Below are positions 1 to 11,005 of a DNA stretch of 64,000 bases, piece after piece. Each line of letters starts with the position of its first letter. Within the stretch, counting starts at the first letter, position 1. The stretch comes from Streptomyces sp. HUAS MG91. Lineage in GTDB: Bacteria > Actinomycetota > Actinomycetes > Streptomycetales > Streptomycetaceae. The notes beneath the pieces were generated by a model. The model made no database searches and had not been told where the DNA came from. It saw only the letters and a list, made by a program, of their open reading frames with translations. The translations under genes were made by a program, and so were the position numbers. The DNA is taken from positions 7,502,001-7,566,000 of the forward strand of contig NZ_CP159534.1 in NCBI RefSeq assembly GCF_040529335.1, read 5' to 3'.

Positions 1-208
1 GCCCCGCGGCGGTCGAGTTCCATGTAGTCGAGTTCGTCGATGCAGAGCAGGTCAACGCGTCCGTAGCCCGCGATCGTCTTCGACAGCTGCTTCTCATCGG
101 CGGCCTCGACCAGCTCGTTGACGAGCTTGGTCGCCAACGCGTAGCGGACCCGGAAACCCTGCATGGCAGCCTCGGTGCCCAGCGTGATCAGCAGATGGGA
201 CTTGCCGC
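1..208 (-). pseudogene. IstB-like IS21 helper ATPase, fragment cut by window edge
   Basis: The reverse strand encodes an uninterrupted stretch that matches IstB, the AAA+ ATPase that assists IS21-family transposases. It starts at a degraded Walker A (SGKSHLL), continues through GTEAAMQGFRVRYALATKLV and DEKQLSKTIAGYGRVD, and reaches a Walker B (LLCIDELDYMELDRRG) at the window edge. Upstream of the Walker A the reading frame turns into Pro/Arg-rich sequence unlike IstB, so the N-terminal domain that contacts the transposase is missing. I read it as the remnant of an IS21-type element marking the border of an accessory island. The rest of the gene lies outside the window and could not be judged. 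Confidence 0.75.
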
Positions 209-377
209 TGAAGGGAGGCGGCCGGTAGCGCGGTGCTGATCTCAATGTGCTCGGATGGGCCCACTTCCGCTGTCGGCGACGAGGTCGCATCGTCGCTGTA
301 CGTGGGCGTGGTGCGCCGAGTGGTTGGGGTGGTGATCGTGCCCAAGTGGCCGCAGGGGATGGGGATACGGTGCTGCC

Positions 378-683: not shown

Positions 684-2006
684 TTAGTTTCCGCGGGTGG
701 CTTCAGTTCGGCTGTCCATGGCGAGCCACTGCGGCATCAGGCCGCTGACCATGGCGATAAGGAGATATCCGCATCCCGCGCAGAGCAGCACTGTCTGTAC
801 ATCGGCTGCGGCGACCGCGATGCCCGCCAGCAGACCGCCGAAGGGAATCCCCGCGTACATCAGCGCGTCGGCGACGCCGCCCACCCGGCCCAGCATGGGG
901 CGGGGGATCCGCTCGAGAACCACCGCGCCCAGCAGCGGGTTGAGGAACCCCTGGGCCAGGCCGGCGCAGGCGATCACTGCAGCCGCGACGGTCAGGGAAC
1001 CGCCGCTACCCAGAACGAGGAAGCGCGGGGCGCCTGCGAGCAGGAAGCAGATCAGAAAGAGCATCCGTCGCGAGAACCGATGGGCACACCAGGCTGCCAG
1101 AGCGCTTCCGCCCAGTGCGCAGCCGGTGAGGACGCCACCGAGCAGGCCGACCGCGGAGGAGTTCCGCCCGGAATGTTCGGCCCAGAGAGGCAACAGCACC
1201 GAGGTGTAGGCGGTGTCCAGAAGGGAACCGAGTCCCAGTGTCGCGATGATCACCAGCAGGAAGGTGTCGCCGCGCAGGAAGCGAAGGCCGGCGGACATGT
1301 CAGCTCGGTAGCTGGTACGCCCCACCGTGTTTGTCTTGGACCCGCTGGGGACAGGTCGAGCAGCAGTCCGGTACTTGGCGCGTGGCACGAAGAGGGTCAG
1401 GATTGCCGAGCCCATGAGGAACAGGGCAGCGTTCACCAGCAGGGCGGTTTGGGGCCCGGCCCAGGCGACCAGTACTCCGCCGCCGCTCAGTCCCACGATG
1501 CCAGCGGTCTGTTCCACCATGCCGGAGAGGCTGGTGGCCCGGACCAGGGGGACCCGGGCCCACTCCGCGACCTGGGGAACCATGGTCTCCTTCGCCAGGT
1601 CGCCGGGCGCGCGGGCAGCCCCCACCACCGCGACCAGCGCGAGGAAGAGCGGCGTGGGTAGGCCTGTGGTGAGGAAAAGCAGGGGCACAGCCGTAAGGGC
1701 GGCGGCACTTGCCAAGTCCGCGGCGGCGGATATCCGCCGTGGGTCGTGCCGGTCCACCACGGGCCCGGTCAGCGCCTTTCCCAGCACGTAGGGAACCAGC
1801 TGGCAGAAGCTGACCAGGCCCATCCGGGACGCGCTGCCGCTCATGGCGAGCGTGAACCAGGGAAGCGCTACTGCGACGATCCGGGAGGACGTGAGCGCTA
1901 CCGCAAGTGCGGCCAACAGGCCGACCAGCGGACGGAGATGGCGGTCGGTGGGCGGCGCGTCCTGGTCGATCGGCTCGGTGTCTCCGCTGCGTTCTGTCTT
2001 CGTCAT
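684..2006 (-). CDS. MFS efflux transporter of the RiPP locus
   Basis: This 440-residue membrane protein has about 12 hydrophobic segments and the loop motif GPVVDRHDPRR between segments 2 and 3, as in MFS drug and siderophore exporters (MFS_3, EntS/macrolide-efflux type). The first ~25 residues are a charged cytoplasmic tail. Its ATG overlaps the stop of the SARP-type regulator by 4 bp (2003-2006), so the two genes are translationally coupled. The pair is divergent from the precursor peptide gene. I infer that it exports the mature RiPP or gives self-resistance. An unrelated drug exporter remains possible. Confidence 0.75.
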   Translation of the reverse strand: MTKTERSGDTEPIDQDAPPTDRHLRPLVGLLAALAVALTSSRIVAVALPWFTLAMSGSASRMGLVSFCQLVPYVLGKALTGPVVDRHDPRRISAAADLASAAALTAVPLLFLTTGLPTPLFLALVAVVGAARAPGDLAKETMVPQVAEWARVPLVRATSLSGMVEQTAGIVGLSGGGVLVAWAGPQTALLVNAALFLMGSAILTLFVPRAKYRTAARPVPSGSKTNTVGRTSYRADMSAGLRFLRGDTFLLVIIATLGLGSLLDTAYTSVLLPLWAEHSGRNSSAVGLLGGVLTGCALGGSALAAWCAHRFSRRMLFLICFLLAGAPRFLVLGSGGSLTVAAAVIACAGLAQGFLNPLLGAVVLERIPRPMLGRVGGVADALMYAGIPFGGLLAGIAVAAADVQTVLLCAGCGYLLIAMVSGLMPQWLAMDSRTEATRGN

Positions 2007-2707
2007 GCCGCTCGTATCCCCTGCCCGACGGGTGTGCCGGGGGAGGCAAGCGCCTGAACCAGCTGTCGACTGGGGCCGATTCCGAGCTCTCGACGCAGCA
2101 GCGCCTCAAAATCCCTCACGCGTACATGTGCCTCTGCGGGCTCTCCTGCCCGGACGCAGCATGTCACCGCGATGCGCCGGGGTGCTTCTCGCAGGGGGTT
2201 CACCTCGGATGCCCGGTCTGCCAGCAGGATCGCTGGCCTCAGCTCGCCGGAACGCATGTGCTGGACGGCCAGTTGCTCCAGAGCTGCGAGCCGGCGAAGG
2301 TCCCATGAGTGGCGCAGTTCCTCTGCCCACGGGGTGTCGAGATCCTTCAGGAGTGGTCTGCTCAGCAGTTCCCATCCGCCGTGAAGCGTGTCTCCTCTTT
2401 CGATGCGCTGGATCACCGTGAGGGCTTCCCGGAAGTCGATATTGACGTTCTTGGCGATTGCTATCGAGGATCGCGCCTGGGCCAGGAGCGGAGCGGTCTG
2501 CTGTGTTCGCCAGATCAGCTGGCGCAGGCGGGCGGAGGCCCTGCGGAGGGGTACTCGAGGGAAGAGGTCTGTAGCGGCCTGTTCCCGTGGGGAGGGCTGC
2601 GCTCGGGTCGCCAGGTAGGCGATCAATTGTTGTTGGGCCGGCCCAAGAAGGACCTCCCCGGTTGTCGTGCGCACATGAAGAGACGGCAGGACAGAGACCT
2701 GAAGCAC
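2003..2707 (-). CDS. SARP-type pathway activator (wHTH + BTAD)
   Basis: The 234-residue protein has a small SARP layout. An OmpR-like winged helix (residues ~1-100: LLGPAQQQLIAYLATR, then LRRASARLRQLIWR) is followed by a bacterial transcriptional activator domain (~115-225: WAEELRHSWDLRRLAALEQLA, then HVRVRDFEALLRRELGIGPS). No ATPase or TPR extension is present. The start was set at GTG 2707 because the winged helix begins there and AGGGGGG lies just upstream; the frame stays open to 2956 but that extra sequence is not domain-like. SARPs activate secondary-metabolite operons by binding direct repeats, and such repeats occur at 2887-2931 in front of the divergent precursor operon. Confidence 0.75.
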   Translation of the reverse strand: MLQVSVLPSLHVRTTTGEVLLGPAQQQLIAYLATRAQPSPREQAATDLFPRVPLRRASARLRQLIWRTQQTAPLLAQARSSIAIAKNVNIDFREALTVIQRIERGDTLHGGWELLSRPLLKDLDTPWAEELRHSWDLRRLAALEQLAVQHMRSGELRPAILLADRASEVNPLREAPRRIAVTCCVRAGEPAEAHVRVRDFEALLRRELGIGPSRQLVQALASPGTPVGQGIRAA

Positions 2708-2886
2708 GGACCCCCCTAATGATCTTGGTTGGATGCATCCTGCATCTACCTCTCCGTGGGGGACAAGAGTGCGGATGGAAAAGGGGAGGGCAAGGGGAGG
2801 GAAAGAATCCGGCATGGCTATCGAGGGTGGGAACGTCCGTCCGCACCGATCCGAACTTCCCTGAGCTGCCCGCATAACGGTGGGAT

Positions 2887-2931
2887 GACGGTCCGGGCGA
2901 CGTTGCCGGGACGATGCCGGAACGACTGGCT
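2887..2931 (+). promoter_or_regulatory. candidate SARP direct-repeat box
   Basis: Two 11-bp repeats, GACGTTGCCGG (2899-2909) and GACGATGCCGG (2910-2920), lie head to tail. They are flanked by weaker copies beginning GACGGTCCGG (2887) and AACGACTGG (2921). Direct repeats in 11-bp register just upstream of a -10 element are the known SARP binding layout; a possible -10 (TACGTT) sits at 2935-2940. The 2708-3014 interval holds this box and the divergent start signals and no other gene. Confidence 0.55.
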
Positions 2932-3014
2932 CCATACGTTCTTGGCATGGCTCCACACGGAGCTTCCCGCCACTGTCCGGGACGTACAGCCCGGTCCGTA
3001 TCCAAGGAGTTCGT

Positions 3015-3119
3015 ATGAAGCAGGAAATTCAGGTCGCGCAGATCGAGGACGTCGTCATCGAGGTCGTCGCGCCGGAGGGTGAGTCGCTCACGGTCCTGAA
3101 CCTCAACGGCAACTGCTGA
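3015..3119 (+). CDS. RiPP precursor peptide (34 aa, C-terminal Cys)
   Basis: This short gene has a strong AAGGAG (3004-3009) five bases before its ATG. The product has a hydrophilic leader starting MKQEIQVAQIEDVV, rich in Ile/Val/Glu, and an end rich in Asn (LNLNGNC) with a single Cys as the last residue. A radical SAM/SPASM enzyme and a SagB-type dehydrogenase follow at once, which is the usual layout for a ribosomal peptide and its modifying enzymes. I infer that the C-terminal LNLNGNC is the modified core and the rest is leader. I do not recognise the peptide family. No dedicated protease gene is present. Confidence 0.75.
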   Translation: MKQEIQVAQIEDVVIEVVAPEGESLTVLNLNGNC

Positions 3120-3125
3120 CGCCAA

Positions 3126-3157
3126 GGGTGGGGGCGGGTACCTTCCCGCCCCCACCC
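3126..3157 (+). terminator. perfect hairpin between precursor and maturase genes
   Basis: GGGTGGGGGCGGG (3126-3138) and its exact complement (3145-3157) form a 13-bp stem with a six-base loop, seven bases after the precursor stop. Such hairpins typically let most transcripts end after the precursor and a minority read on into the enzyme genes. It also argues that the maturase starts downstream, at 3197. There is no U-tract. Confidence 0.7.
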
Positions 3158-3196
3158 TCGCACCTCCCCAACGCGACGGAACAGAAAGCGCAGGCC

Positions 3197-4624
3197 GTGT
3201 CCGAACCCTCCTTTCATCCTGCTTCCCCATACCTCCGGTTCGGTCACGAGACCTTCCTCGACGCGCGAGGTCGTGAGGTGGTGCCCGCGATCCTTCCCGG
3301 CACGGCCTCTTCGATGTTCATCCCGGTCGACCTGGCAAACCTGCTCAATGAAGGCGGGATACCGGGGGGAACGGTCTCCCCCGAAGGGCTTCGTCAGCTG
3401 CGTGAGGTCGGTGTTGTCGTCGACAGCCAGGACGAAGCGCGCGCTTCGCACTACGCACGCATGCGCCAGGCATCCGCAGATCCCGGGATGCGGAAGTTCG
3501 TCCTGCTTCCCACTTCATACTGCAACATGGGTTGCTCGTACTGCGGACAGGAACACCGCAAAGGGAGCACGTCTCCGCGGCATCGGGCCGTGGTTGCCGC
3601 CCGGGTGCGACGTGCGGCGCAGTCCACGGCCGTGTCCCGCATCCAGGTTGGCTGGTTCGGCGGTGAACCCTTGATGGCCTACCACGCCATCAAGGAGATG
3701 AGCCGAGAATTCCGTCATCACGCGCAGACGAACGGCATTGCATACGCCGCGAGCATTGTCACCAATGGATCTCTGCTCACCGAACGCAAGATTGCCACCC
3801 TGGTGGAAACGTGTGCGGTGACCAGGTTCGACATCACGCTGGACGGACTGGCGGACGTGCACGATGCGCATCGGCCGCTCAAGAGCGGCGCGAAGTCGTT
3901 CGACCGGCTGGTTGGACTGCTGTCCCAGACCGTGGCCGACCCCAGGTACGCCCATGTTCATTTTGTGTTGCGCACCAACGTGGATATCGAGAACTGTGAG
4001 CATGTCACCCCGTACCTGGAGGAAATGGCGCGCCTCGGCTTCGGCGGGCGGAGCAACGTCATGTTCCAGCTGGCCGCGATCCATACATGGGGAAACGATG
4101 TACGGGCGCAGCAGATGGAACATGGCGCCTACGTGCGACGTGAGGTGGAGTGGCTCGACCTCATGACACGCCTCGGCCTGAACACCGCCCTGCTGCCGAC
4201 TTCACCAAAGCCCCAGACCTGTACAGCAACAGGAGCGGCGAATGAGGTGATCGCCAGCGACGGCTCCCTGTACTCCTGCACAGAGCACCCTCTGGTTCCG
4301 GCTCATGAACAGGCAGACAGGCTCGCCTGGGTCGATGGACTTCCGTCCACCCAGCTGAGGCCACAGGGCGCCTTCGACGACTGGGCCCAGCATGTCGGCG
4401 AGGGTAAGGCCATGTGCTCCTCGTGCTGGCTGCTGCCGGCCTGTGGGGGGAGCTGCCCAAAGCTGTGGAGGGAGGGAGAGGTCCCCTGCCCCCCTGTGAA
4501 GTTCAACATCAAGGAGCGGCTGTCCATCGTGGCCCGCAAGGCAGGGATGCAAACGGTCGATTCCTTCCCTGCGCCCTCCGCACCGACGGTGACCACCGCC
4601 CCAACCGAGCAGGTGGCGAAATGA
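3197..4624 (+). CDS. radical SAM/SPASM peptide maturase
   Basis: The product is 475 residues. The radical SAM cluster is CNMGCSYC (CX3CX2C, residues ~109-116), followed by the SAM-binding GGEP (WFGGEPL). The C-terminal SPASM domain is complete and canonical: C342, G356-X4-C361, then C407-X2-C410-X5-C416-X3-C420 and C431, enough for two auxiliary Fe-S clusters. SPASM maturases catalyse radical chemistry on RiPP precursors, such as thioether, C-C or C-O crosslinks. GTG 3197 is preferred over GTG 3128, which would lie inside the hairpin stem. The stop overlaps the next ATG (4621-4624). The exact reaction cannot be told from sequence; the lone Cys of the precursor makes a Cys-centred linkage plausible. 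Confidence 0.85.
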   Translation: MSEPSFHPASPYLRFGHETFLDARGREVVPAILPGTASSMFIPVDLANLLNEGGIPGGTVSPEGLRQLREVGVVVDSQDEARASHYARMRQASADPGMRKFVLLPTSYCNMGCSYCGQEHRKGSTSPRHRAVVAARVRRAAQSTAVSRIQVGWFGGEPLMAYHAIKEMSREFRHHAQTNGIAYAASIVTNGSLLTERKIATLVETCAVTRFDITLDGLADVHDAHRPLKSGAKSFDRLVGLLSQTVADPRYAHVHFVLRTNVDIENCEHVTPYLEEMARLGFGGRSNVMFQLAAIHTWGNDVRAQQMEHGAYVRREVEWLDLMTRLGLNTALLPTSPKPQTCTATGAANEVIASDGSLYSCTEHPLVPAHEQADRLAWVDGLPSTQLRPQGAFDDWAQHVGEGKAMCSSCWLLPACGGSCPKLWREGEVPCPPVKFNIKERLSIVARKAGMQTVDSFPAPSAPTVTTAPTEQVAK

Positions 4625-5729
4625 AAGTCCGTGCCGTGCATCCCATACACGTCCAGTCCGACGAGAGCGGGGTCCATCTGACCTCCCCACGCGTCGCCAA
4701 GCGCTTGCGGGTGCACCCAGCCGTCGCTGAACTTCTGCTCCAAATGCGGGAACCGGTCGAACACGCCGAGCTGAGACACCCGTCCCTCAGCCGCAAGCAA
4801 CTCGACTCAGCCATCGACGTGTTGAAGGACGTCGGGTTCGTGGTGTCGGGCGCTGACGCCGACGCAGCCCAAGATCAAAGCGGCTTCCCGCCTCCATGGG
4901 ACGTGTGGGGCGCCACTGCCTGGAACTTTCACCAGCAACTGCGCGATGCCCCTTTTCTCACCTCGGAGTCCCCTGAGTACTCAGCATACGAGGAGCGGGT
5001 CTTGGCACGTCCGCGCCCTTCCTTCCACCGGAGTCACGACAGCGACCTCATTCTGTTGCTCCCCAGGGTGAGGTCGGACCTCTCGATTCCCTTCCAAACA
5101 GTGTTGGAGCAGCGGCGCACTCACCGGGACTTTGAGGACCGTCCCGTCCCACTGGACCAGTTCGCCACCCTGCTCCACTACGCGTTCGGCCCGCTCCGCT
5201 TCGTGGATTCCGGCTCCATGGGGTACAACAACTCAAGACGTACGCATCAGGTGGCGCCCGCCATGAGGCCGAGGCGTACATCGCGGTGTTCGCGGTCGAA
5301 GGCATCTCGAGCGGAACCTACCGGTACGACGCGATTCGACACGGGCTCGTTCCGGTGGAAGCAGATCTCTCCCGTGGCCAGCTCGAACGACTGACTCACG
5401 ATCAAAGGTTCTTCACCGCGTCCGGCTTCGGGGTGGTCACCACGGCCCAGACCGAGCGGATGGCATGGAAGTATCCGCATCCCCGCGCCTATCGGTTGAT
5501 GTTCCACAACGTCGGCCACATGGTCCAGGTCTTCTCCATGACGGCGTGCGCACTGGGGCTCGGGGCGGCTATTACGGGAGCCTTCCGCGATAGCGAAACC
5601 GAGGAGGTACTGGGCATCGCGGGGACGAGCGAGATTCCTACCTTCTTCCTGGCCGCCGGCATCCCGAAGCGGAACAACGACGGCCTGCCCCTTTCAATCC
5701 GTATCCACGGAGCTGCCACGACGCATTGA
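4621..5729 (+). pseudogene. SagB-type FMN-dependent peptide dehydrogenase, frameshifted
   Basis: The gene encodes an N-terminal winged-helix-like region (residues ~1-90) and then a SagB-type nitroreductase. The frame opened at ATG 4621 carries the FMN-binding EQRRTHRDF and runs to about 5220. The rest (GVQQLKTYASGGARHEAEAY, EGISSGTYRYD, AYRLMFHNVGHMVQVF, GLGAAITGAF) reads in the frame one base back and stops at 5729. The switch falls at a GGGG run (5220-5223); one more G would restore about 369 residues. SagB enzymes oxidise azolines to azoles in TOMM peptides, but no YcaO cyclase is present, so another two-electron oxidation of the radical SAM product is possible. A real mutation and a homopolymer sequencing error cannot be separated here. 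Confidence 0.75.
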
Positions 5730-6472: not shown

Positions 6473-6484
6473 GTGCCCGGCTGT

Positions 6485-6780
6485 GCCGGGCACCTCCGCG
6501 GACGCGCACGCCTGGCGCGCGTCCGGCCTGGCCGAGCACTGCGAAGGCGTGACCCTGCTCGGTGATGGCGCCTATCTCAACTGCGGGATGGTCACTCCGC
6601 ACCCCAAACGCCCCCGGCGGGCCCTGCTGCCGTGCGAAGAGGCCGACAACGCCGCGCACCGCAAGGTCCGCGCCCGGGTGGAGCACGTGATCGGCCGGAT
6701 GAAGCACTACAAGATCTTCCGCGACTACCGGCAGCACGGCGACGGCCTCCACCACGCCGTCCAGACCGTCGCCCCTTTAG
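6485..6780 (+). pseudogene. IS5-family (DDE_Tnp_4) transposase, C-terminal fragment
   Basis: The fragment reads SADAHAWRASGLAEHCEG, LLGDGAYLNCGMVTPH, then AHRKVRARVEHVIGRMKHYK and YRQHGDGLHHAVQTVA. This is the C-terminal catalytic part of IS5-group transposases, with the third acidic residue in RVEHVIGRMK. The N-terminal half is absent. After HAVQTVA the usual tail is replaced by unrelated sequence. It is non-functional debris joined at about 6485 to another possible transposase remnant. Confidence 0.7.
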
Positions 6781-6808
6781 TCGTGCCTATCACCACATGG
6801 GCGAGGCC

Positions 6809-6833
6809 ACCGGTTCGAGCCCGGTCGCCCGCA
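6809..6833 (+). other. tRNA 3'-end-like sequence, possible attachment-site remnant
   Basis: ACCGG-TTCGAGC-CCGGT (6809-6825) is a perfect T-arm with the TTCGA loop, followed by CGCCCGC (6826-6832) and A, like the 3' acceptor strand of a tRNA. No anticodon arm or 5' half fits upstream, where the transposase fragment lies. Such partial tRNA ends are left by elements that integrate at tRNA genes. GGGCG at 6799-6803 could also pair with CGCCC, so a plain hairpin is an alternative. Confidence 0.4.
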
Positions 6834-6976
6834 CTCTTACCGGACCGTGCTCGCCGCGTGGTTGGCTCGACTCCGCGGTCTGTACGTCGTTGACCCGCAC
6901 TTCGACCGTGGCAGGGAACGGGTCTCCTGCTCGTGTAGGCGTTTCCGGGGCGGCCGTGCCGAAGTCTCCCGAAAGA

Positions 6977-7066
6977 CTGCTCCCCACGCCCGCGGGGATG
7001 GTCCCCCGATCAACGGCCTGCCCCAGACGACCGTTGACTGCTCCCCGCGCCCGCGGGGATGGCCCC
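6977..7066. CRISPR. orphan two-repeat type I-E-like CRISPR
   Basis: Two 29-base repeats (6977-7005 and 7038-7066) begin CTGCTCCCC and contain the CGCCCGCGGGGATGG palindromic core, differing at two positions. They flank one 32-base spacer (7006-7037). The 61-base period and the CCCCGCGCCCGCGGGG core are those of actinobacterial type I-E arrays. No cas genes occur in the window. The second repeat ends at the stop codon of the cupin gene. Confidence 0.7.
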
Positions 7067-8168: not shown

Positions 8169-9118
8169 GGGCGGGCGAGCCGGACGCCGCGCCCCGACCC
8201 GTCGTGGACGTCACCGAGTTCACGGATCCCGCGTGCCCGTGGGCCTGGGGCTCCGAGCCGGTCTTCCGGCGGCTGCGGCACGGTCTGGCGCCCCGGCTGC
8301 GCTGGCGGCGGGTGTTCGGCATCCTCTTCGACGAGGACGACGACCCCGCGCCGGACCCCGACGCCGAGGCCCGCTGGTACGAGGAGTTCATCGAGGGCGT
8401 CGCCGCCCACACCCGCGCGCCGTACGCCGCCCGGCTGCACTGGCTGACCCGGACCAGCTGGCCCGCGTCGGTCGTCGCCAAGGCCGCCGAGGCGCAGGGC
8501 TCTCAGGTGGCCGACCGGGTGCTGCGCAGGCTCCGCGAGACGACCTTCGTCCTGGGCCGCCCCGCCGACTCCCTGGCCGCCGCCGAGGAGGCCGTCAGGG
8601 GAGTGCCGGGCCTCGACGTACGCCAACTCTTGGACGAGCAGGCCCTGTTCGCCGCGCAGGAGGCCGTCGGCGCCGACCGGGCGGAGACCCGCCGCCCGCT
8701 CGCCGAGGTGTACGGCCTGCAAGGCCCCGGGCCGCACCCGGGCCGCGCCAAGGAACTCGCCGACGGACACCGGTACGCCCTGCCGACGCTCCTGTTCGCG
8801 GGGCCGGGCGGGCGCGTCTGCGTACCGGGCTGGCGGCCCCTGCGGGAGTACGTCGACGCGGCGTCGACGGCCGCCGGTGCGCCGCTGAGCCTGCCCGCGC
8901 CGCTCGGTCCCGACGCGGCGGCGGAGCTCTGGCGCAGCCTCACCGAGCCCGAACTGCGCCTGCTCACCGGCGGATCGCAGCCCCCCGCCGACGCCGTGCG
9001 GGTCGCGACGGGGAACGGTCCGCTGTGGCTCCACCCCGACGAGGCCAAGCACCACCCGGCGACGAAAGCGCAGGCAGCGGGGGTCTCGGACAATGAGACA
9101 CCTAAAGGTGTCCATTGA
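8165..9118 (+). CDS. DsbA/FrnE-like thioredoxin-fold protein with CPWA motif
   Basis: The product is 317 residues without a signal peptide, so it is cytoplasmic. The N-terminus has a thioredoxin fold of the DSBA/FrnE type (VVDVTEFTDPACPWAWGSEP), then the helical insertion, then LPTLLFAG before the final strand and helix (the cis-Pro region of this fold). The usual CPWC active site reads CPWA, so only the first redox Cys remains. This excludes a simple disulfide exchange cycle and suggests a mycothiol-linked reductase, isomerase or binding role. It is coupled to the Rrf2 gene by a 4-bp overlap. The C-terminal ~70 residues are an extra region I do not recognise. Confidence 0.75.
   Translation: MRAGEPDAAPRPVVDVTEFTDPACPWAWGSEPVFRRLRHGLAPRLRWRRVFGILFDEDDDPAPDPDAEARWYEEFIEGVAAHTRAPYAARLHWLTRTSWPASVVAKAAEAQGSQVADRVLRRLRETTFVLGRPADSLAAAEEAVRGVPGLDVRQLLDEQALFAAQEAVGADRAETRRPLAEVYGLQGPGPHPGRAKELADGHRYALPTLLFAGPGGRVCVPGWRPLREYVDAASTAAGAPLSLPAPLGPDAAAELWRSLTEPELRLLTGGSQPPADAVRVATGNGPLWLHPDEAKHHPATKAQAAGVSDNETPKGVH
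9091..9117. promoter_or_regulatory. inverted-repeat operator before the organosulfur operon
   Basis: CAATGAGACACCT (9091-9103) and AGGTGTCCATTG (9106-9117) form a near-perfect dyad around AA, with one extra base in the left arm. The right arm contains the 10-mer also present at 7657-7666. The dyad overlaps the last codons of the upstream gene and precedes the leader peptide, a fitting place for repressor control of the operon. Confidence 0.55.
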
Positions 9119-9149
9119 CAGCCCGTCGGGCGGCCGTGAGGATATGAGC

Positions 9150-9224
9150 ATGCCTTCGACGCATCCCGGCGTGGTCTGCCGTTACGTGGACTTCCGGCGC
9201 ACTTCCAGCGCACTCTGTCGCTGA
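9150..9224 (+). CDS. Cys-containing leader peptide (24 aa)
   Basis: ATG 9150 has GAGGA (9138-9142) seven bases upstream. The 24-residue product starts MPSTHPGVVCRYVDFRRTSS and ends ALCR. The pattern Arg-x-Val-Asp, Arg, Ser-Ser-x-x-Cys-Arg-stop matches small leader peptides I know from actinobacterial sulfur and cysteine operons, where ribosome stalling at Cys codons is thought to control downstream expression. Cys codons here are 10 and 23. About 200 bp of GC-rich sequence with hairpin potential follows before the transporter gene. Confidence 0.65.
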   Translation: MPSTHPGVVCRYVDFRRTSSALCR

Positions 9225-9427
9225 CCCCTGCGGCCGCCGCCTGCCCCTCCCGGCAGCGCGGGCTCGTCCCGAAGCCGGCCCGCCCCCTTTTCCTGTGACG
9301 ACGCCGCCCCGTCTCCGCGTCGCCTTTCCCTGGCCTCCACCTCCTGTGCCCGCGCCCCGCCGTCCGGGCGTTCCATGACCCGCCCGCGCACCCGTCCCGC
9401 GCGGCGCGGTCAGAAAGGTGTGCTCCC

Positions 9428-11005
9428 ATGCCTGCGTTCCGCCTGCCCACCGTCCCCCGACCGCCCTCGGAACCGTCGTCGTCCCCCCGGCTCGGCCGCC
9501 GTTCCTTCCTCGGCGTCTCGCTCGCCGCCGGGGCCTCCCTCGCCCTGACCGCCTGCGGCGGGCAGTCCACCTCGGCGGCCGGAAGCGGCGGCGGAACCCT
9601 CAAGTGGGGCTGGGACCTGCCCACTTCATGGGATCCGGTCACCTCGTCGGCCGGCTGGGACGTGCACTCCCTCTCCCTCGTCTACGCGGCCCTGACCCAG
9701 CTCGACCCGCGGGGCGACGCCGTCCCCGCGCTCGCCGAGGCGTGGAAGTACAACGACGACGGCACGGTGGTCACCTTCACGCTCCGGTCGGGCGCGACGT
9801 TCGGCGACGGCAGCCCGGTCGACGCGACTGCCGTCAGGAAGAGCCTCGAACGGGGCCGTGACGACCCGAAGTCCCTGGTCGCCTCCCAGCTGATCGGCGT
9901 GAAGCAGATCAGCGCCCCGGACCCGCGCACCGTCGAACTGCGCCTGGCCGCACCCGACTTCCAGATACCCGCACTGCTCGCGGGCAAGACCGGGATGATC
10001 GTCAACCCGAAGGTCTTCGCGAAGGACCCCACGAGCCTGGCCATGAAGCCGGCCGGCGCCGGACCGTACACGCTCGTCTCCTACGTGGAGAACTCCAAGG
10101 CCGTCCTCAAGCGCAACCCCGCCTACTGGGACGCGAAGAAGATCAGGACGGAGAACTTCGAGCTGTACCCGCTCCCGGAGCCCTCCACCGTCGTCGCCGC
10201 GCTCAAGTCCGGCCAGTACAACGTCGCCCAGATACCCGGCAGTCAGGTGAAGGCCGCCCGCGCGGCCGGGCTGAAGGTGCAGGTCATCCCGTCCATGGTG
10301 GTGGCCGTCCTCGATGTGCACAACGGCCGCGAGCCCTTCACCGACCCGGACGTCGTCCTCGCCCTGAAGTACGCCGTCGACCGCGAGGAACTGCTGAGGA
10401 CGGCCTCCTTCGGCTACGGCGAGACCACCCGCCAGCCCTTCCCCAAGGGCTATGCGGGCTACGACCCCGAGCTGGACAAGCTGTTCCCGTACGACCCGAA
10501 GAAGGCCAGGGAACTGCTCGCGAAGGCCAGCCACGCCGACGGGCTGAAGCTCAAGATCACCACGCAGAAGGCGGAAGGCGTACCGGAGTTGCTCCAGGCC
10601 CAGCTGAAGAAGGTCGGGATCACCGCCACCATCGAGACGATCCCCGCCGACCAGGCCACGCAGATCGTCTACATCCAGCGCGCCAAGGCGCTCAACGTCG
10701 ACCAGTTCGCCGGACGCGACTCCGCCACCCAGGCCTTCCAGGTGCTGTTCGGCAAGGAGGGCCTGATGAACCCCGGGCGCACCACCTCACCCGCACTCGA
10801 GAAGGCCCTCGACGTCGTCCGCCGCACCCCGCTGGACTCGGCCGACTACCCCGAGGTGCTCCAGAAGGCCACCGGCATCGCGGTGCGGGACATGCCGAAC
10901 GTGTTCCTGTACACCGTCCCGCGCATTCTCGCCCGCAACCCGGAAGTCTCCGAGATCCCCTCCTACACCGTCGTCCAGCGCTTCGACGGGGTGACCGTCG
11001 GATGA
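9428..11005 (+). CDS. ABC transporter substrate-binding lipoprotein (SBP family 5)
   Basis: The product is 525 residues. The N-terminus carries a twin-arginine motif (GRRSFLG) and a lipobox (LALTACGG), so it is a Tat-exported lipoprotein on the outer face of the membrane. The body is an SBP_bac_5 domain as in DppA/Opp[41 protein letters not shown] and DREELLR are typical. GAAAGG precedes the ATG. The next gene overlaps its stop by 4 bp. Family members bind peptides, nickel complexes or opines. With two SsuD-like enzymes in the operon, I infer an organosulfur compound as ligand. Confidence 0.85.

Follow-up and report, generated by a model that had tools for sequence, protein, structure and literature searches.

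A Streptomyces RiPP locus pairing a radical SAM/SPASM maturase with an interrupted SagB-type dehydrogenase

The window analyzed here, a 64,000-nt stretch (positions 7502001-7566000) of the 8.6 Mb, two-contig genome of Streptomyces sp. HUAS MG91, carries a genuine RiPP locus: a short conserved precursor of 34 aa adjoins two peptide-modifying enzymes, a radical SAM (rSAM)/SPASM maturase and a SagB-type dehydrogenase, the arrangement by which RiPP loci are recognized. We assign a probability of about 0.5 to the reading that it belongs to a SagB-led family, in which the maturase would form an Asn31-Cys34 thioether and SagB would desaturate the core, with SagB interrupted in this strain.

Architecture of the locus

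The features of the locus and its immediate borders are as follows.

3-290, minus strand: IstB transposase fragment, on one side of the locus
684..2006, minus strand: MFS exporter gene, divergent (Pfam MFS_1, 87 bits)
2003..2956, minus strand: BTAD-containing, SARP-like regulator (BTAD, 48-49 bits); start codon uncertain
3015..3119, plus strand: 34-aa RiPP precursor, with the EGESL leader motif at 3075-3089 and the core end N-G-N-C at 3105-3116
3121..3161: hairpin directly 3' of the precursor stop (-36.7 kcal/mol)
3197..4624, plus strand: radical SAM/SPASM maturase, N-terminal domain read as RRE-like; possible alternative start upstream, at 3128
4621..5223, plus strand: SagB-type dehydrogenase, N-terminal part; frame open to 5394, homology ending at ~5223
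5220..5729, plus strand: C-terminal part of the SagB-type dehydrogenase, in a different frame from the N-terminal part and containing W-K-Y
6483-6893, plus strand: DDE transposase fragment, on the other side of the locus

The predicted divergence of the MFS gene from the operon is borne out at 684-2006, extending the locus beyond the interval 2003..5729 originally given to it. The predicted SARP at 2003-2956 has the BTAD domain; Pfam detected no N-terminal DNA-binding domain in a gene model whose start codon is uncertain. GC content dips to 62-69% at about window -1000 to 7000, with flanks mostly at 70-77% and one upstream 2 kb at 68%; this dip, together with the flanking transposase fragments, suggests that the locus was acquired horizontally. 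At window 6975-7066, a pair of CRISPR-like direct repeats of 31 nt, lying 61 nt apart, is perhaps an array remnant. The hairpin at 3121-3161 has a z of -5.36, with 0 of 200 shuffles as low, and is a possible attenuator or processing signal; among the loci compared after offset correction, 9/16 post-precursor hairpins reach 0.05.

The precursor and its closest relative

The precursor was originally described as a short ORF with a strong ribosome site, a description upheld by the 34-aa frame at 3015-3119, an upstream AAGGAG, a codon HMM scoring 3013-3113 as coding in the same frame, and an unannotated relative, 61% identical, on Streptomyces plasmid NZ_CP108437 (locus L002, 5735-5836). The L002 gene order is precursor, maturase (50% identical to that of the window), methyltransferase, SagB, and MFS. 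The window precursor ends in EGESLTVLNLNGNC and its L002 counterpart in EGESLTMLDLNGNC, both finishing L(N/D)LNGNC, and their last 15 codons differ by five changes, three synonymous and two non-synonymous. Lack of conservation of the 34-mer had been named as an outcome that would speak against the proposed peptide class: the peptide is kept in one close readable locus, L002, while distant maturases are accompanied by other leaders; the NGNC end is kept in L002 and N-x-x-C by most distant maturase loci. The precursor matches 0 NCBIfam families at E<=1, and at E<=0.01 it is found in 1/295 genomes of the genus draw, that of the window itself.

The maturase and the N-x-x-C motif

The seven-Cys SPASM maturase of the original prediction is confirmed at 3197-4624, where all cysteines (C109-x3-C113-x2-C116, C342, C361, C407, C410, C416, C420, and C431) are present and invariant in a 28-row alignment. 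Its AlphaFold2 model (pLDDT 91) starts with strands (6-43) followed by helices (44-94), a secondary structure from which alone we read a putative RRE-like, leader-binding domain. The closest solved folds are 5why/5wgg, which are titled for thioether formation in a RiPP enzyme and which we take to be CteB. The best NCBIfam model, TIGR04463, scores 164 bits, short of its cut-off of 525, excluding membership, and likeness to many other rSAM maturases is likewise sub-threshold. At E<=1e-60 the maturase occurs in 13/394 genomes of the family draw, its own included.

A 70-row maturase tree comprises 13 SagB-linked rows, 18 without a SagB-like match in the fetched flanks, and 39 unlabelled. SagB-linked maturases span at least two clades: L139 stands apart on a long branch, and the others fall into two groups. 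The group of 28 rows around the window is supported at 90/94 and includes nine SagB-linked rows but not one of the 18 SagB-negative ones.

The motif survey covered 95 loci with the maturase family, a hit being an upstream small ORF with a ribosome site and N-x-x-C in its last 14 residues; 54/95 are positive. Setting aside 31 non-actinobacterial loci (L052-L082, 1/31 positive) and five same-contig repeats (L128, L129, L130, L133, and L134), the motif is present in 48/59 actinobacterial loci (46 distinct sequences), which are mutually related and so do not represent 59 independent events. The Cys forms the C-terminus in 30 of the 48. The background, 9/194 among the remaining late-Cys small ORFs, is a fairer control than shuffling (mean 8.6, highest 16, of 46), which took in only precursors preselected for the motif. 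The 11 negatives are L010, L015 (contig edge), L034, L040, L044, L046, L110, L136, L137, L138, and L139; in L110 an NFGC peptide is encoded 2 kb ahead of SagB, on the other strand from the rSAM gene, and the L139 peptide ends NKVNVC, not N-x-x-C. By our reading, leaders across N-x-x-C loci appear to be of different types (aroma-sacti, MIKLTT, signal-like, and EGESL).

The window locus shows both sequence hallmarks of NxxC-type ranthipeptides: its precursor contains N-x-x-C and its maturase is an rSAM/SPASM enzyme. According to two reviews (PMC8326336; PMC13361665), NxxcB ties Cys23 to the beta-carbon of Asn20 in NxxcA, with the same spacing, making an Asn31-Cys34 thioether the likeliest first step in the window peptide.

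SagB and its interruption

The single SagB ORF expected in the operon did not stand: homology leaves one frame near 5,220 and resumes in another. The intact L002 SagB (plasmid NZ_CP108437) aligns to 4627-5223 and continues, after a change of frame, over 5220-5702, alignment to intact relatives places the frame change at the same position, and the codon HMM switches frame between 5232 and 5263. A frame scan of the 64 kb found no break elsewhere, the same scan being too insensitive to flag the SagB break. Judged from these alignments, SagB is probably inactive in Streptomyces sp. HUAS MG91, unless misassembly produced the break. Damage to SagB recurs, with an in-frame TAA in another genome (G259:C1:5421461-5422540) and, in Streptomyces sp. 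NPDC058964 (P0169), a C-terminal half fused to unrelated N-terminal sequence. An in-frame TGA also occurs in a maturase gene of the family (G548:C1:4535703-4537049).

On the TIGR03605 SagB model (cut-off 78.4), the intact relative P0122 scores 101.5 bits and the window's C-terminal piece alone 76.2 bits. TIGR04511 (SagB_rel_DH_2) is the best NCBIfam model, yet P0122 reaches 127.9 bits against a cut-off of 240 and is not a member. Fold matches of the SagB model (pLDDT 74) include ThcOx, BmdC, McbC, and, at rank 27, AlbAB. W281-K282-Y283 is invariant across 15 SagB relatives, with W-K-Y also retained in the second SagB piece of the window; azoline dehydrogenases use the Lys-Tyr pair in catalysis. 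The L002 SagB as query (E<=1e-30) finds 20/392 genomes of the genus draw, and P0122 (E<=1e-60) finds 8/394 in the family and 1/394 in the class, its own included. A viral origin was set aside: no SagB or maturase relative was confirmed in viral_contigs, and phages gave one weak SagB match.

Co-occurrence of maturase and SagB

Maturase and SagB occur together, without YcaO involvement, in the window, L002, L034, L110, and L139. A SagB-like match lies near the maturase in 8/95 loci, three of the eight being of a different, fused kind. Catellatospora/Hamadaea maturase loci carry a Lant_dehydr_C-nitroreductase fusion (L032 3544-5313, L039 8663-10462, and L035 4693-5397), assigned by Pfam in L032 only, by likeness in L039, and by match position in L035. 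At least nine pairs are found among 120 listed of 274 maturases and 50 listed SagBs: P0002/P0137, P0004/P0124, P0005/P0141 (the L002 strain again), P0009/P0174, P0011/P0168, P0012/P0172, P0014/P0171, P0016/P0167, and P0102/P0151. These pairings rely on exactly equal longest-contig values, of which short ones (5708, 6444) could coincide by chance.

The expected co-occurrence is seen in part: the enzyme pair recurs, but most fetched maturase relatives have no nearby SagB, and some SagB genes accompany related leaders where no family rSAM gene lies nearby, qualifying the claimed SagB-rSAM pairing. The suggestion of a new peptide class gains from the NGNC end kept in L002 and the recurring pair and loses from the chemical precedent for N-x-x-C in NxxcA/NxxcB; conservation of the NGNC end supports the window locus as a distinct RiPP subclass. 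The reported absence of YcaO extends to the whole genome, where a search for the cyclodehydratase gave 0 matches, and an azole-peptide reading (YcaO plus SagB) was dropped for this reason.

Tiny acidic peptides at SagB loci

A tiny acidic peptide (18-48 aa) is associated with SagB in 16/31 SagB loci inspected, with cores of NxxC, LC(F/Y), or HHP. It lies mostly ahead of the maturase in rSAM clusters and ~150-970 bp ahead of SagB in others (~2 kb in L110). Peptide, SagB, and family maturase are united in the window, L002, L110, and L139. The EGESL-type peptides align with the consensus VVExEGExL. No tiny peptide was found at L034, for which no precursor was found, at L114 or L153, or at twelve more distant loci (L092-L103, most of them with only 1.5 kb flanks). 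The remaining peptide-bearing SagB loci group by core:

L107 (peptide 10325-10408) and L149: CLCY core, SagB, no family maturase
L108 (peptide 8718-8801) and L109 (8485-8568): LLCF core, SagB, no family maturase
L148: ACF core, SagB, no family maturase
L150 (9104 onward) and L151: LNKNN(A/V)C core, SagB, no family maturase nearby
L112 (two 18-mer copies, about 9014-9330), L113 (three near-identical), L154 (two variants), L111, and L152: HHP group, SagB, no family maturase

The HHP-group peptides measure 18-20 aa, such as MDIVIIEDREVVAHHPSL, with one to three copies preceding SagB; in L112 and L152, SagB is followed by JmjC_2 proteins and an MFS gene. Pfam places JmjC_2 beside SagB in L112 (two), L152, L148, and L110, and two L113 proteins resemble those of L112. 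A simple pairing of JmjC with HHP holds only partly: JmjC_2 also occurs in L148 (ACF) and L110 (NFGC). L149 contains a TauD-type dioxygenase; in L107, SagB is accompanied by a methyltransferase-like gene and one for a carbamoyltransferase.

On a SagB tree of 66 rows, the five LC(F/Y) loci cluster together (95/95), the three labelled JmjC loci make up a separate cluster (97/76), and L150/L151 fall beside the rSAM-linked P0124 (96/84). L150 and L151 combine an NxxC peptide and SagB with no nearby family maturase, so NxxC need not mean rSAM; their position beside P0124 makes rSAM loss or action in trans the simpler account, and from the tree this looks like what happened. A profile search for the family maturase in SagB-bearing genomes found none in G671, G638, and G259, weak, distant matches in G353, G179, and G542, and one true member in G548, far from SagB.

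Two cousin loci encode a LanD-like flavoprotein (PF02441): L139 (4915-10491, minus strand), with maturase, SagB, and MFS, and L029 (6638-11107), with maturase and a B12-binding radical SAM protein. LanD decarboxylases act on a C-terminal Cys, and by analogy these genes point to Cys-derived C-termini in the cousin products.

Proposed pathway and alternatives

In the proposed pathway, the N-terminal domains of the maturase and SagB would grip the leader. The maturase would abstract a hydrogen from Asn31 and bond that residue to the sulfur of Cys34, through the beta-carbon if NxxcB is a guide. SagB, most likely a core desaturase, would strip two hydrogens from the Asn/Cys-bearing core, leaving an unsaturated, vinyl-thioether-like C-terminal ring, and release of the product would fall to the MFS pump together with a protease encoded elsewhere, under control of the BTAD regulator. 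With SagB interrupted, the path in this strain probably halts at the thioether, barring an assembly error. EGESL-like leaders, common to clusters with and without rSAM, fit leader recognition by SagB. The enrichment of NxxC (48/59 against 9/194), the NxxcB precedent, and the 5why/5wgg fold support thioether formation by the maturase. The TIGR03605 score, the ThcOx/BmdC/McbC fold, the invariant W-K-Y, and the grouping of SagB-linked maturases support the SagB-led explanation, and counting against it are the 11/59 loci without an NxxC ORF, the NxxC peptides of L150/L151 beside SagB with no family maturase nearby, the aroma-sacti matches of some relatives' precursors, and the broken SagB.

Two alternatives concern the chemistry. 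The maturase may make an alpha-thioether (sactionine) or another crosslink while SagB oxidizes a different residue, the two steps sharing one leader but being otherwise independent. The name of the aroma-sacti model implies an alpha-thioether, and this NCBIfam domain is matched by precursors of maturase relatives; the sub-threshold likeness of the maturase to many other rSAM maturases and the presence of SagB with LC(F/Y) and HHP cores that have no NxxC point the same way. The name is an annotation, however, the window precursor itself is unmatched, and the fixed two-residue Asn-Cys spacing is that of NxxcA, which leaves this alternative unlikely. Alternatively, SagB itself could make the Asn-Cys bond by desaturating Asn31 for addition of the Cys34 thiol, the maturase improving the reaction or doing something else. 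L150 and L151 retain LNKNN(A/V)C with SagB and no family maturase nearby, and a dehydro-amino-acid intermediate for the Asn-Cys bond is discussed in the available part of PMC8326336; yet most NxxC loci have the maturase without SagB, and loss or trans action explains L150/L151 more simply given their place on the SagB tree, making a bond-forming SagB improbable.

A third alternative concerns this strain and is compatible with the thioether-desaturation pathway in intact relatives: the locus may be a horizontally acquired, decaying relic without a product. The split SagB, the IstB and DDE fragments on its flanks, the 62-69% GC dip, and the SagB damage in G259 and P0169 favor decay, whereas the precursor, maturase, regulator, and exporter ORFs are all open, and the SagB break is a possible assembly error, with no other break found by the insensitive 64-kb scan. 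We regard a relic as a serious possibility, though on balance doubtful.

Implications and comparison with known systems

More broadly, and tentatively, at slightly less than even odds, we propose a new RiPP family in which SagB instead of YcaO would bind acidic leaders of 18-48 aa and desaturate the core, with exchangeable partners: rSAM in combination with NxxC cores, JmjC oxygenases where HHP peptides stand in tandem copies, and, for LC(F/Y), either varied oxygenases or none. Its rSAM branch would make an unseen unsaturated Asn-Cys thioether ring. SagB enzymes are known mainly for oxidation after YcaO in azole formation; if the proposal is true, action on a bare or thioether-bridged peptide would be a new SagB reaction. 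The very short leaders and the change of partner from locus to locus make the idea testable by simple co-expression, and a tiny acidic peptide beside a SagB gene offers a search handle for clusters unnamed by present NCBIfam precursor models. In the open-access literature searched, a scope outside which most subscription papers lie, neither SagB with radical SAM on NxxC precursors nor a tiny-leader SagB family was found described.

Azole peptides (TOMM/LAP) share with this locus a SagB-type dehydrogenase with the conserved W-K-Y and the fold of ThcOx, BmdC, and McbC, and they differ in that the partner here is a radical SAM enzyme and YcaO is absent from the genome. Among actinobacterial sactipeptides related to aroma-sacti and StsA (NF045560, NF045559), precursors of maturase relatives match NF045560 well, and the window precursor matches neither model at E<=1. 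The beta-thioether ranthipeptide system NxxcA/NxxcB of Streptococcus orisratti, compared through the available portions of its descriptions, likewise has an rSAM/SPASM maturase and the N-x-x-C spacing; the window differs in its actinobacterial host, its EGESL leader, its Cys at the very C-terminus, and its SagB, of which those portions of the NxxcB descriptions make no mention.
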